A stretch of DNA of 64,000 nt from Victivallis vadensis (GTDB lineage Bacteria; Verrucomicrobiota; Lentisphaeria; Victivallales; Victivallaceae), in the NCBI RefSeq assembly GCF_003096415.1, contig NZ_QEKH01000028.1:1-64000 (forward strand), read 5' to 3'. The first letter of the stretch is position 1. Each line of letters starts with the position of its first letter. Shown piece by piece: positions 27,246-33,645 of this stretch. A model generated the notes under the pieces. The model had not been told where the DNA came from. It was given only the letters and a program-made list of their open reading frames with translations, and did not search any database. A program made the translations under genes and the position numbers.

Positions 27246-27998
27246 TTACCATTTCCAATGTTTATCGACCGCGTACCGAATCTTGTACAGACCGGTGCTT
27301 TCTTCAACGGCAAATGCATCATCCTGGGAAACGCTGCGGGCGCTGCCGTCGCAGAAACCGACATTGGAACCGTGGCCATGCCGCTTCTTAGTCACATCGA
27401 CCCGGCCCGCCATCAGATTGTTTTCCGCCCACTCCCGGTCATTGGCATTGGCCAGCCGGGAACGCAACTTCGTGGTATACCCCAGCAGGATAGTCGTTGA
27501 ACCGTCTCCGACCAACACGGAACTGCTCGGGATTTTCCACGTCTTAAGCGGAGCACGTTCATCATGGCAATAGCTGTTCAGATAACCGTTGATGCCGTAT
27601 CCAATCGGCGAATAGGCTTTTTCCTTCCATTCCAGAATCTTCTGATAACCAGTCGAGTCGGAGGGGCAATTGAAAATATTTGTACCGACGTATTTATTGA
27701 TCACAAGCAACCCGGCCCATGTCGCATAATCGCTGACGTACCAGAGCCCGAGTTGTGCCGCTTTGTCGGCAGGCGGCACCCGGTTTCCGGCATCGGAATC
27801 CGCATACATCAGGCAGGCGGTTGTAATCTGCTTGACATTGCTGAGGCATCGTGCTGCCTGCGCCACACTGCGCGCTTTGTTCAGCGCCGGCAGCAGCATC
27901 GCCGCCAGAATCGCGATGATCGCTATCACAATGAGCAGCTCAATAAGGGTGAAACGGATAGTACGCGGCAGAAAATCGCGGTTTTGAGTGATTTTCAT
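27246..27998 (-). CDS. Pseudopilin-like protein with H-X9-DG motif (27.2 kb)
   Basis: The 250-aa protein opens with a positively charged leader and the type IV pilin-like segment [28 protein letters not shown]. The residue before Phe is Arg (TIR/FTLIE), not the glycine needed by canonical prepilin peptidase. Glu5 is kept. A globular domain with scattered cysteines follows, ending in HGHGSNVGFCDGSARSV, an exact H-X9-DG motif. Start ATG 27998 follows AAAGGAGAG. The gene sits between the GH130 and the 990-aa hydrolase. By family it is a minor pseudopilin of a type II-like secretion machine; partner and function are unknown. Confidence 0.9.
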   Translation of the reverse strand: MKITQNRDFLPRTIRFTLIELLIVIAIIAILAAMLLPALNKARSVAQAARCLSNVKQITTACLMYADSDAGNRVPPADKAAQLGLWYVSDYATWAGLLVINKYVGTNIFNCPSDSTGYQKILEWKEKAYSPIGYGINGYLNSYCHDERAPLKTWKIPSSSVLVGDGSTTILLGYTTKLRSRLANANDREWAENNLMAGRVDVTKKRHGHGSNVGFCDGSARSVSQDDAFAVEESTGLYKIRYAVDKHWKW

Positions 27999-28012: not shown

Positions 28013-28962
28013 TTACTGTTGATTCAACATATACTGATAGCCCTCGTAACAGCTTTTTACAATATCCTCAAGCTGCATTTCCGCAAGCCCGATGCAGGCA
28101 TCGGCGGCGCCGTAGTAGATTTTCACCGAATTGTCCGGTTCGAGCAGCGCATTGCAGGTGAACACCACGTTGCCGGCGCGGCCGGTCCGCTCGTAGGGAG
28201 TTTCCGGGAAAAGCAGCGGGCGCTTGCTGCGGGCGATCACTTTCCACGGTTCCCTGTAATCGAGAATCGCCGCGAACAGCGCGTAGATTGAACCGTCGCA
28301 GCTGGCAGACACTCCGTGGTAGATTTCGAGCCATCCCTCCTCGATCCGGATCGGCGGAGCGCCCGCGCCGAGCTTGAGCTGGTCCCAGTGGCAGGGGCGC
28401 GAACTCATCACCGGACGGCTTTCCCCCCAGTAGACCAGATCAGGCGAAAAACTCATCCACATATCGCAGGGTGACTGTTCGCCGCCGCCGAACGGGCGGT
28501 CGAGGCGGCAGTACCTGCCGTCGATCAGCTCCGGAAACAGCGCGCCGTTGCGGTTGTTGATCTCCGAGCTGATCGATACGGATTCAAATTTCACGAAATC
28601 ACGGGTTTTCACGAAACCGATCCGGGTGCCGTTCAGCGCGTTGTTGTGGCTGCCGTAGGCGATGAACCAGTCGTCGCCGATCTGCGTGATGCGGGGATCG
28701 TACACGCCGTTCTCCTCCCAGTAGTCCGGCGGTTTCGGCCAGTCCACCGGCGCGGGATCGAACTTGAAGTGGTAACCGTCCCGGCTGCGCGCGATCCAGA
28801 ACAGGATGCCGCCCTCGTTGTGGAACACGTCGACCAGCAGCAGGTATTCGCCGTTGAATTTGACCGCTCCCGGATTCAGGATGAAGTAGCCCGCCTTCTC
28901 CGGCAGGTTCCGGACAGTCAGAATCGGATTTTCTCGTAGCGTTGAAAAGATTTCTTGTACAT
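28013..28962 (-). CDS. GH130 family glycoside phosphorylase/hydrolase, apparent frameshift near start
   Basis: The protein has a GH130 five-bladed beta-propeller: NPGAVKFNGEYLLLVDVF, YDPRITQIGDDWFIAYG, FPELIDGRYCRLDRPFG, GSIYALFAAILDYREPW and VVFTCNALLEPDNSVKIYYG. GH130 enzymes phosphorolyse or hydrolyse beta-mannosides. The main frame can be traced upstream only to a TTG at 29044, which lies inside the promoter. A natural start, ATG 28962, reads MYKKSFQRYEK in another frame and stops at once. One extra A in the AAAA tract (plus-strand 28929-28932) would join it as RYEKNPILT, the normal GH130 N-terminus. The gene is therefore mutated, mis-sequenced or recoded here. Confidence 0.85.
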
Positions 28963-29008
28963 GGAAAATGTTTCTTATGGTTGGTAAACTGTTTCGTTCG
29001 CTATTAAT

Positions 29009-29037
29009 AGTATGATCGATTTTGTTCAAAATGTCAA
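29009..29037 (-). promoter_or_regulatory. Putative promoter of the GH130 operon
   Basis: On the minus strand TTGACA and CATACT are spaced 17 bp; a 10-bp palindrome CTATTAATAG (29001-29010) overlaps the -10 region. A start site near 29,003 would give a ~40-nt leader to ATG 28962. Confidence 0.55.
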
Positions 29038-29203
29038 GAGGCAATTCAAAAAAATCGACAGATTTCCATCATTTTGCGATCGGATTCCCGGATTCCGAAC
29101 CGATGACCGGAAGCATTGCCCGAATTGCGGTGGAAAAACGGCGCAACCGGTGGTATGTTATGGTATTCAACCGAAATTCAACCGATTTACGGATCTACAA
29201 GCT

Positions 29204-30034
29204 ATGGCCGATTTCGATACCGAACTGGATTTGTTCAGCTTCATCCCGGCGGAGCCGGTCCCCGAACCGCCTCCGCCGCCCCGGCCGGCGCGGCGAAAAC
29301 CGGCGCACCGGGAGCTGCAGCAGCTCTGCTTCGGCTTCCTGTGGTCGCTGAATCCCGATGCGGCGGCGATGCGGGTTCCGGCGCGCTTTCACAAATATCA
29401 GGTGACGGCAGCCGGTTTCTGGCGCGGCGAAACCGGCCGCAACCGGAGTGTGGAACGCACCGCGGTGGTCGTATTGTATGAACGTTTCGAGCATTGCTTC
29501 GCCGACTGCGCGGACCGGGACGCCCGGCTGGCGGCCATCCATGAATTGCGTGCCGAAAAGGAGGCCCTGGAAGCGGAGATCCGCCGGACAGAGCCGGAAC
29601 TGGGTTCGACCGACGACCTGTTTTCGGACTTCCGGGTCTGGAACTACGCGGCCAGCCGGAACCGGGACTACCTGAAACTGCGCCGAAGGCTCGAAAAGCT
29701 CCAGCACGCGCTGCATCAGGGAAGCCGCCTGGAGCATATCCGGCACACCGGCGTCGCGGACTACTGCTATCTGGCCGTGCCGGAAAATCTGGTGGCTCCC
29801 GATGAAATCGCGGCAGGCTGGGGGCTGGTCTATCTGGAGCCGGGCCGGAAGTTCCGGCTGGTGCGCGAAGCCGAAGAACAGGCGATCGCCACCCCGGAGG
29901 GACGGCAGCTCCTCGCCGAAAACATCGCAATCGCCGCCTCATGCAACGCCAGATTCGCGGCGGGGCTGGATGTCAGGAAAGACGGCACGGTAGTCTACCG
30001 GCGGCCGCCGCGCAAGCGCTCCCGCCTCAAATAG
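29204..30034 (+). CDS. Protein of unknown function with MmcB-like C-terminal motif
   Basis: The ~276-aa soluble protein starts at ATG 29204; no clear Shine-Dalgarno is seen. A proline-rich acidic N-terminus (AEPVPEPPPPPRPARRKP) is followed by LQQLCFGFLWSLNPDAAAM, a coiled-coil-like charged stretch (~120-200), then VADYCYLAVPENLVAPDEIAAGWGLVYLEPGR (~203-233, split here: VADYCYLAVPENLV, then GWGLVYLEPGR). The latter pattern resembles the end of restriction-endonuclease-like folds such as MmcB. I cannot identify the upstream catalytic D...ExK. The tail is strongly basic (RRPPRKRSRLK). It is a single gene between two glycan operons transcribed the other way. Confidence 0.65.
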   Translation: MADFDTELDLFSFIPAEPVPEPPPPPRPARRKPAHRELQQLCFGFLWSLNPDAAAMRVPARFHKYQVTAAGFWRGETGRNRSVERTAVVVLYERFEHCFADCADRDARLAAIHELRAEKEALEAEIRRTEPELGSTDDLFSDFRVWNYAASRNRDYLKLRRRLEKLQHALHQGSRLEHIRHTGVADYCYLAVPENLVAPDEIAAGWGLVYLEPGRKFRLVREAEEQAIATPEGRQLLAENIAIAASCNARFAAGLDVRKDGTVVYRRPPRKRSRLK

Positions 30035-30091: not shown

Positions 30092-31183
30092 TCAATAATT
30101 CCCAGCCCCCACATCCATCGTTTCTCCCGGTTGAAAAACAGCGACGATTCGCTCATGCCGGGGCGGAGCATCCGGATTCTGCTCCCGCCAGCGTACCAAC
30201 TCTATTCCGCGAAAGGCCATTTCACGCGCCTGTGTGCAGAACACCGCCGGACGCGGACAGTAATACCAGGCTTCCAGCCGGTCGCCGTAACAGAGCACCC
30301 CCACCTCCCGGGGAACGCGCATGCCGGAATCACAGAGTCCGCGCATCACTCCCCAATAACAGCTCAACGGCGTGACGATCAATGCTCCGCGCAAGCTGTT
30401 GCCGAGCATCCGCACCTTTTCCGTCAGCACCTTGTGGGGCAATTCAAAACGGGGCACCTCGAAAAGCAGCGAGGTATCATCGAGCACCACATCCGGGTAA
30501 TGTTCCGCCATATAACGGCCTATCTGATGCATTCCGGGATTCAGGAAACGCTTCCCGGCCATGTTGCGTATGAACTGCTCCACCTGCACAATCCGGCGAT
30601 AGCCGGCTTCATACAGCCTGCAGGCCAATTCCACCAGTCCGAACTCGGGGGAATCGACCACGGCATCCACGCCGCCGATTCCATCCACGCTTCCGCAGAA
30701 TACGACCGGCTTGCCTCCGGAACGGAATTTCTTTTGCAACGATTCCGGAATCGTCCAGAGATCACGGATCGACATACAGAACATGGCATCCGAATTTCCC
30801 CACAAGTCAGCAATCGTCTTTTCTTCCCACGAGCGAGCATAGATCACTTTGACCAGCCATCTCGCATGTTCGGAAGCCTCAGAGATATACATGTTGAAAT
30901 CAAGGTATTCCGGCGCCGACCAGGCGGGCAGTACCACCCCGAGCTGCTTTTGTACTTTATGCTCCGGAATTTCGCAGCGAACAAAGGTGCCGATGCTGTG
31001 GGCTCGCTCAAGGTAACGCTCAGCCACAAGCGTTCCCACCGCCTTGCGCAACGTCATATAACTGACGCCGAACTGTTCGGCCATGATCCGCTCCGGCGGA
31101 AGCAGCGCGCCGCGCGGATAGTTTCCGATCCGGATCTCCCGCAGAATCTGCTCTCGAATTTGATTTACCTTACTGGGACGCAT
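30092..31183 (-). CDS. GntR-type HTH regulator with LacI-like sensor domain
   Basis: The ~363-aa regulator has an N-terminal winged HTH of the GntR family (~residues 1-70: SKVNQIREQILREIRIGNYPRG, then FGVSYMTLRKAVGTLVAERYLERAHSIGTFV). This is fused to a LacI/periplasmic-binding-protein-like sensor (~80-363, ending with GVLCYGDRLEAWYYCPRPAVFC). This AraR-like layout is typical for sugar-responsive repressors. I start it at ATG 31183, since the upstream extension has no fitting start. It is the last gene of the pseudopilin/GH-A operon and probably regulates it; the inducer is unknown. Confidence 0.85.
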   Translation of the reverse strand: MRPSKVNQIREQILREIRIGNYPRGALLPPERIMAEQFGVSYMTLRKAVGTLVAERYLERAHSIGTFVRCEIPEHKVQKQLGVVLPAWSAPEYLDFNMYISEASEHARWLVKVIYARSWEEKTIADLWGNSDAMFCMSIRDLWTIPESLQKKFRSGGKPVVFCGSVDGIGGVDAVVDSPEFGLVELACRLYEAGYRRIVQVEQFIRNMAGKRFLNPGMHQIGRYMAEHYPDVVLDDTSLLFEVPRFELPHKVLTEKVRMLGNSLRGALIVTPLSCYWGVMRGLCDSGMRVPREVGVLCYGDRLEAWYYCPRPAVFCTQAREMAFRGIELVRWREQNPDAPPRHERIVAVFQPGETMDVGAGNY

Positions 31184-31224
31184 ATTGCTTAATATTCCAT
31201 GCAAACCGCCAAAATGCAAGTCGT

Positions 31225-33645
31225 TCAAGGAGCATATACAAACCGAATCTTGCGGAGCCAAACGGTAATTTCTCCGGCGGCGCTGTTCACTCCGATCCGC
31301 AGCCGCCTTATCCGGTCCGGTTCAAACCCGGCAGGAAACTGCACAGTAAGCTTCTCCCACTCCCCATCAGGAGCAACCCGCAAATAGAGGTCGCGTTCCC
31401 CTTCACCGGGAACCGCCATTACCAGCATCTGCCTGACTGCGGCGGGCGAAGAGACCTTTGCCTCCAACGCAATTCCAAGCGCCCCCTTCAACGACTCCTG
31501 CGGCAGTTGAAGTTCGTATTCCGGATAACTCCAGCGGTCCTCGATCGCCGGGAAAACGGTGTGGAAACGGATAGCCTCTTCCATCTCGTCATAAGCGATC
31601 TGCATCTCGCCCGAAGCATTTTTACGCCAATTGACCGGATCGAGCATCGCCGTGATTTCCAGTTTCCGCCCGGAACCCGCCATCGCCTGCAGCCCCTGTA
31701 CCGGAACCACCAACGGCGTCACCCTGCGGCCATTGAAAACCCCGCCGACCGCAAGGACCGTCTTAAAGGCCCCGTCATATGCCGGCGAAAAGCGGAGCGC
31801 CAACTCCGCCTTGCCGAAGGGTGGAACAGACACCGACGGAGGAATCCCGGTACAATCCCCGCCGGAAACCGTGATCGTCCCTTTCTTCGGTTTCCCGGAA
31901 AGGTTCCAGATTTCCAGTTTGAAACGCGCCTCCGGCTGCCGGATATCCACATAGTCCTTGCCGCTGGAAAGCAGAAAATCCTCTGAAAGTTCCGTACGGA
32001 ACACGACTGTTCTGTCCTCTCCGGCTTCCGGATCCCGGGCAACCGGTGGAAGGATGGCCCGGTCGATGACGGTCAGACCGGTCACACCGTGGAGAAAGCT
32101 CGGAAAGCGCGAAACCGTCAATGCTTCCTCCTTCATCTCAAAAGGCGTTCCGAACAGGTCGGTCCCACATAACGGCCCTTCCTGCGGAGGAAGGACAATC
32201 CTGCGCAATTTAGGGTCCGCCGCAGAGAGTCCGGGACGAACCGGTTCCGTATCAAGCTCGGATATACTCCAGTATACCAGAGTCCGACTCCCGTTTCTGT
32301 GTCGGTACAAATATCCTTTCACGCCATCACCGACATCAGCCTCCCCCTCCGGGATCGCATCGCCGAGCTGATCTACCAGCGTGGCGAAAGCGGCAAAGCC
32401 GGGTTTCACCGTGTAGTCGCGCCGCATCAGCCCCCAATCCTTGTTTCCTCCATTCTCGCTGTAGGGAGGAAGAACGAAGAAAAAATCACGGGACACCCCG
32501 AGCATCTGCATGGAGATCATCATCTTCGGCAGATACTCCGCAATCAGCAGTTCTTGGTCGAAAGAGTGTTGCCGGATTCCCGGCATAAAGCTCTCCTCGC
32601 GTCCAGCCCCCTCCATGCCGGAACCGTTCTCTGTAAACCAGATCGGCCGGCCCGCAATACCGCAGCGTTCCATATGAGCCCGGATGTCCGTCAGGATCTC
32701 CGGAAAATCCCGGAGAGGCCGGTAAGTATGGATATTGAAAATATCGAAGTAGCAGCCCGCTCCATTTTTCATCACGACATCTGCATACGGCAGCACCGGC
32801 GTTATCGCAAAACCACCGATCGCTACCGTCGCCTCCGGCTCCCCGGCTTTAAACCCCAGCGATGCGGCTTTCAGAGCAGCGGCGTAATCCCACGCGCTCT
32901 CCTGACCGAAGCCGTGATCCTGTTCGTTCCAGAATTCCCAATTGGCCATGCAGCCCCTGAAAGCCTCCGCCGCATTTTTTGCAAAAACGTATGTGTCGAG
33001 AAGATTGGTCGGGAGCAAACCTTTCCCGTTCCTGCACCAGCCGGGAGAGTCGTGATACATTCCGGAGAGCCTGATCCCGCGTTCCTTCAGCAGTTCCGCA
33101 TTGGTCTTGTAATAGGTCCACACATATCGGTTCCGGGCGGGATTCACTTCGGCCCAGCTCATGCGATCGCGTACCATGCCCGCACCGGAACGCCGGGCGA
33201 CCTCCGAAACGATTTCAAAGGCGTTTCCCGGTTGTCGGGGATTCTCCGCATCGGGCCGGGCCAACCAGCTCTGGGCGGAGTCCAAAGCAAAAAACATATC
33301 CGGATTTGCCGGCCGCTTTCCGGGATCGGAAACTACCGCGAATCCGCGACTGCCTGTAAAGCCCCCGCCGCCAATCAGCTCCAGCTTATAGTATCCGTTG
33401 GGCAAAGGTGCCAGAACCAGTTCCTTCCCCGGCCACGTTCCCTGGCGCACCACTTCATCGCGCCAATTTCGCAATGTCCATGTGCGTGGCGGCGATTCCA
33501 CGCACTTCAATGAGAATTTCAATTTCTCCCCTTGCACAAAGGCTGCACCGGGAGCCGCGGCAACCAGGGATTCGGAGGTATCCACAACGGCCGCACCGGC
33601 CGCCAGCGTCATACAAAACAGAAAAAGATATTTCATCATGATCAT
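31225..33645 (-). CDS. Secreted clan GH-A glycoside hydrolase
   Basis: The 806-aa protein has a signal peptide (~residues 1-20), an N-terminal beta domain (~25-105), a (beta/alpha)8 barrel of clan GH-A (~110-470) and C-terminal beta domains (~550-806). The putative acid/base is E241 in NWEFWNEQDHG, and the nucleophile is E339 in PIWFTENGSG, on strands 4 and 7 as in GH39/GH5. RDRMSWAEVNPARNRYVW and SGMYHDSPGWC fit early barrel strands. Substrate is not predictable. Its ATG overlaps the pseudopilin stop by 1 nt, suggesting translational coupling; the GntR regulator follows 41 nt downstream. Confidence 0.82.
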   Translation of the reverse strand: MIMMKYLFLFCMTLAAGAAVVDTSESLVAAAPGAAFVQGEKLKFSLKCVESPPRTWTLRNWRDEVVRQGTWPGKELVLAPLPNGYYKLELIGGGGFTGSRGFAVVSDPGKRPANPDMFFALDSAQSWLARPDAENPRQPGNAFEIVSEVARRSGAGMVRDRMSWAEVNPARNRYVWTYYKTNAELLKERGIRLSGMYHDSPGWCRNGKGLLPTNLLDTYVFAKNAAEAFRGCMANWEFWNEQDHGFGQESAWDYAAALKAASLGFKAGEPEATVAIGGFAITPVLPYADVVMKNGAGCYFDIFNIHTYRPLRDFPEILTDIRAHMERCGIAGRPIWFTENGSGMEGAGREESFMPGIRQHSFDQELLIAEYLPKMMISMQMLGVSRDFFFVLPPYSENGGNKDWGLMRRDYTVKPGFAAFATLVDQLGDAIPEGEADVGDGVKGYLYRHRNGSRTLVYWSISELDTEPVRPGLSAADPKLRRIVLPPQEGPLCGTDLFGTPFEMKEEALTVSRFPSFLHGVTGLTVIDRAILPPVARDPEAGEDRTVVFRTELSEDFLLSSGKDYVDIRQPEARFKLEIWNLSGKPKKGTITVSGGDCTGIPPSVSVPPFGKAELALRFSPAYDGAFKTVLAVGGVFNGRRVTPLVVPVQGLQAMAGSGRKLEITAMLDPVNWRKNASGEMQIAYDEMEEAIRFHTVFPAIEDRWSYPEYELQLPQESLKGALGIALEAKVSSPAAVRQMLVMAVPGEGERDLYLRVAPDGEWEKLTVQFPAGFEPDRIRRLRIGVNSAAGEITVWLRKIRFVYAP

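Follow-up and report, generated by a model that had tools for sequence, protein, structure and literature searches.

A one-base frame break at the start of a GH130 gene in Victivallis vadensis

A 64-kb stretch of the genome of the gut bacterium Victivallis vadensis (the window) carries on its reverse strand a gene of glycoside hydrolase family 130 (GH130) whose expected beginning and whose body stand in different reading frames. The locus raises the question of whether the gene is broken in the sequenced strain, whether a base was miscounted in the assembly, or whether the enzyme is made nonetheless, by recoding or from another start codon.

The frame break and the family N-terminus

The expected start codon, ATG 28962-28960 (-), opens a frame of 14 codons, MYKKSFQRYEKIRF, which ends at the stop codon TGA 28920-28918 (short ORF, 28918-28962). 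Its first 11 codons correspond to the family N-terminus, as judged from the N-termini of homologues and from a profile score. The five-bladed propeller of the GH130 protein (28013-28933, -; ENPILTV... to TAA) reads ENPILTVRNLPEKAG... in another frame, open to the TAA at 28015-28013; the propeller reading ENPILTVRNLPEKAGYF... is open from about 28933 (-). From the sequence and the comparison with orthologues, the two frames meet at a tract of four A (28929-28932, -), where they are one base out of register. The N-terminal residues of a GH130 protein are present in the window, but they are out of frame with the propeller, whereas they are in frame in 13 of the 13 closest homologues. The propeller frame has no in-frame ATG 5' of its NPIL motif, and the only common start codons upstream in this frame are TTG 29044 and TTG 29029. 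The frame break at the start of the gene is confirmed: coordinates and frames bear out the initial annotation, in which ATG 28962 opened a GH130-like beginning that stopped after 14 codons, and its proposal of a 1-nt frameshift is supported by the frames together with the orthologue N-termini.

Homologous loci were drawn from 61 genomes and from a scan of genome_contigs, which may omit near-identical records. Of 50 loci, 45 were read upstream of the NP(I/V)L motif; the five left aside were the own loci L004 and L009 and the repeat contigs L039, L040 and L047 (by length and position, L039 and L040 correspond to the contigs G001:C123 and G006:C86). For L007 and L049 the anchoring on the NP motif differed from that of the other loci. 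Forty-four of the 45 loci were matched (L050 had no match), and not one of the 44 lacks an in-frame ATG 5' of the motif anchor; compared with these intact relatives, the disabling change in the window is the broken frame. The nearest in-frame ATG lies 6-14 codons 5' of NP(I/V)L in the 13 closest homologues that were read (64-80% identity; the reading is without G007:C189 and G025:C87, which are 65% identity matches). An arginine occurs four residues before NP in all 13, the in-frame RxxxNP(I/V)L start being a feature of the close orthologue group and not of the whole GH130 family. Orthologues begin with RYEKNPIL (L015), RYAKNPIL (L013) or RYKKNPIL (L046). The RYEKNPILT that had been put forward as the expected family N-terminus agrees with L015 and with the arginine at -4, and the orthologues do possess, rather than lack, a start of the RYxxNPIL type.

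FQRYEK, the six residues of the ATG frame before the tract, scored 13.5 bits on a profile built from 35 six-residue N-termini of homologues. The window gene, L007 and L049 were excluded from this profile, L019, L020 and L034 contributed no six-letter row, and some six-residue strings shared by near relatives were counted a single time. The residues that the propeller frame has at this position scored -4.5 bits, and when the bases of the local sequence were shuffled 200,000 times, none of the shuffles reached 13.5 bits. FQRYEK of the broken frame fits the family start, unlike the residues upstream in the propeller frame.

The propeller and its genomic neighbourhood

The propeller matches Pfam PF04041 with 183.8 bits (cut-off 26) over profile positions 30-320 of 320, and its frame is intact. 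An enzyme of the GH130 mannoside-phosphorylase type is predicted; the NCBIfam phosphorylase equivalog models are matched well below their cut-offs. The propeller is under purifying selection, with dN/dS of 0.21 to the gene in the nearest relative, genome G005, and of 0.16-0.17 to L011 and L013. For five outgroups in turn, unique amino-acid changes numbered 14 v 29, 7 v 26, 17 v 23, 17 v 16 and 15 v 19 (window v G005), with no excess in the window. Neither dN/dS nor these counts gave any sign of relaxed constraint or further damage in the propeller. PF04041 is found at 12 places in the genome, one of which is 52% identical to the window protein; the loss of the gene may therefore be buffered, or a silent copy tolerated.

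Read from its sequence alone, the G005 locus holds a row of a LacI-like regulator, the GH130 gene, a pseudopilin and a large glycosidase-like gene. The window likewise has a regulator nearby and, downstream of GH130, a prepilin-type gene (pseudopilin, H-X9-DG; 27246-27998, -), a pseudopilin-type gene following GH130 in G005 too. When the 64-kb window was compared by blastn with G005 C2 60-160 kb, the sole piece longer than 200 bases was the GH130 gene with the start of the pseudopilin, and the flanks of the two loci are otherwise unlike. The N-terminal coding stretch of the pseudopilin (27900-27957, -) recurs at dozens of places in the same genome and in relatives, at about 81-96% DNA identity.

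The upstream region and alternative starts

A promoter lies upstream of ATG 28962 at 29009-29037 (-), with the hexamers, identified by eye, TTGACA (29037-29032) and CATACT (29014-29009) and a 17-base spacer. It is conserved in place in L010 (G005) and L011 (G001): in the alignment a CTTGAC block is common to all, and the -10 region matches. Between this promoter and the ATG is an 18-base element, AACGAAACAGTTTACCAA (28981-28998, -), with the palindromic core AAACAGTTT. Searched in nine genomes of the genus, it matches exactly at two places only, the window locus and the region upstream of the G005 GH130 orthologue, where it occupies the same position; with two mismatches, three further places were found. 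The element is a probable operator, perhaps for the regulator with a GntR-type DNA-binding domain and a LacI/periplasmic-binding-like part encoded at 30092-31261 (-), whose proximity makes it a candidate for control of the GH130 promoter. This regulator belongs to a large paralogue set, with 53 matches in its own genome at E <= 0.001. The promoter and the 18-base element, in the same position in G005, provide a usable lead on GH130 regulation in the genus.

The divergent ORF at 29012-30034 (+) has no Pfam match and is conserved in eight of the eight other genomes of the genus. Its ATG 29012 lies inside the GH130 promoter. The matches in the genus start no earlier than residue 56-89 (61 for the best match), which places the probable true start near ATG 29204.

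We also considered that the propeller might be translated from another in-frame start, which we regard as improbable. Candidate codons do exist in the frame, namely TTG 29044, TTG 29029, a rare start (ATT near 28968) and the internal GTG codons at 28828, 28747 and 28705, but the family N-terminus is carried by the ATG frame. TTG 29044 sits just 5' of the -35 box, and TTG 29029 falls between the -35 and -10 boxes; both precede the -10 box and so are outside the transcript. Because they are at or inside the conserved promoter, neither is a credible start, and both were rejected. The internal GTG codons (residues 35, 62 and 76, counting NPIL as 1) would drop the first blade, just ahead of the aspartate of the DPR motif (residue 78), which we take to be the catalytic acid of GH130. 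The initial annotation had dismissed TTG 29044 as a start, a judgement that the conservation of the promoter supports; it had named this codon alone, not TTG 29029. Annotations of the propeller ORF should not begin at TTG 29044, which sits at the promoter, and should mark the locus as frameshifted.

Mutation, assembly error or recoding

The propeller, the promoter and the upstream element show no decay, and the break is therefore very recent or absent from the organism. It is an ordinary kind of event, a one-base frameshift that is either very recent or an error. We consider a real and recent loss-of-function mutation in the sequenced strain to be somewhat likelier than an assembly error, at slightly better than even chances, the weighting being a matter of judgement. 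According to this explanation, transcription of the gene would run from the conserved promoter (29037-29009) and ribosomes would initiate at ATG 28962; they would lose the propeller frame in the AAAA tract (28929-28932) and stop after 14 codons, and we infer that little or no GH130 enzyme would be made. The recent inactivating deletion suggested by the initial annotation fits, in that the absence of decay agrees with a recent event, but an error of assembly or sequencing would look identical and likewise predicts no decay.

Such an error, with the GH130 gene of the living strain unbroken and the A tract miscounted, is a serious contender, if the less probable one. One base in a homopolymer makes up the whole difference, the draft assembly is in 87 contigs, and the gene, its promoter and the upstream element are under purifying selection without decay. 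However, the tract has only four A, and short-read platforms usually count tracts of this length correctly. A screen of stop-to-stop ORFs of G005 against 710 kb of this genome also speaks against an error. With 1.3 Mb of G005 it yielded 74 pairs (91 kb), and with 2.1 Mb 102 orthologue-like pairs (123 kb) and one candidate. This sole candidate (G000 C1, about 170.8 kb) proved to be an antisense ORF that continues into the following gene, and not a frameshift, and the reverse-direction screen (71 and 101 pairs) yielded no candidates. With no other true frameshift in 102 pairs and 123 kb, an indel-rich assembly was rejected as the general cause, and the balance leans mildly towards a real mutation. 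The thresholds of the screen (pieces of 12 aa or longer, 45% identity, E 1e-15) make it blind to a shift of 11 codons at the end of a gene, and a count of zero in 123 kb allows a few errors per 100 kb, which weakens the case for mutation. A search for another strain, with an exact 34-base sequence in viral_contigs, gave no match.

Programmed recoding, by a ribosomal frameshift or a slip of RNA polymerase at the A tract that would still yield the enzyme from ATG 28962, is very unlikely in our estimation. In its favour, the frames do join at the A tract, and the propeller frame, itself intact, is under constraint. Yet the ATG frame, with the codons TAC GAG AAA ATC, by inspection contains no X_XXY_YYZ slippery heptamer, the RNA downstream shows the folding expected from its shuffles (z -0.13), and a split arrangement occurs in 0 of the 44 matched homologues; these results count against the recoding that the initial annotation had listed among its options. 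The usual slippage of polymerase requires a tract longer than four A. It is also very improbable, we think, that a non-canonical slip of low frequency at the tract lets GH130 be expressed, or that the loss and gain of one A toggles it; were this true, GH130 output would be switched at the eleventh codon. Searches of the literature on Victivallis with GH130 and on programmed ribosomal frameshifting with glycoside hydrolase returned nothing relevant by title. If the recent mutation is real, its effect on the biology would be small: the sequenced strain may have one silent copy among its 12 GH130-like places.

The event resembles recent frameshift pseudogenes and the homopolymer indels of draft assemblies in its single-base length difference, its short A tract and its otherwise intact, constrained gene, and compared with these the window case has nothing distinctive. 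The gene itself resembles glycoside hydrolase family 130 (PF04041) in its propeller match and in its alignment with TM1225 of Thermotoga maritima (1VKD), the nearest solved structure, which extends from the NPI motif to near the end of 1VKD; TM1225 is listed as a beta-1,4-mannooligosaccharide phosphorylase (PMC8950772). The orthologues of the genus have the RxxxNPIL start, which the window gene shares as residues. In contrast to these orthologues, the first 11 codons of the window gene are, in this assembly, out of frame with the remainder.
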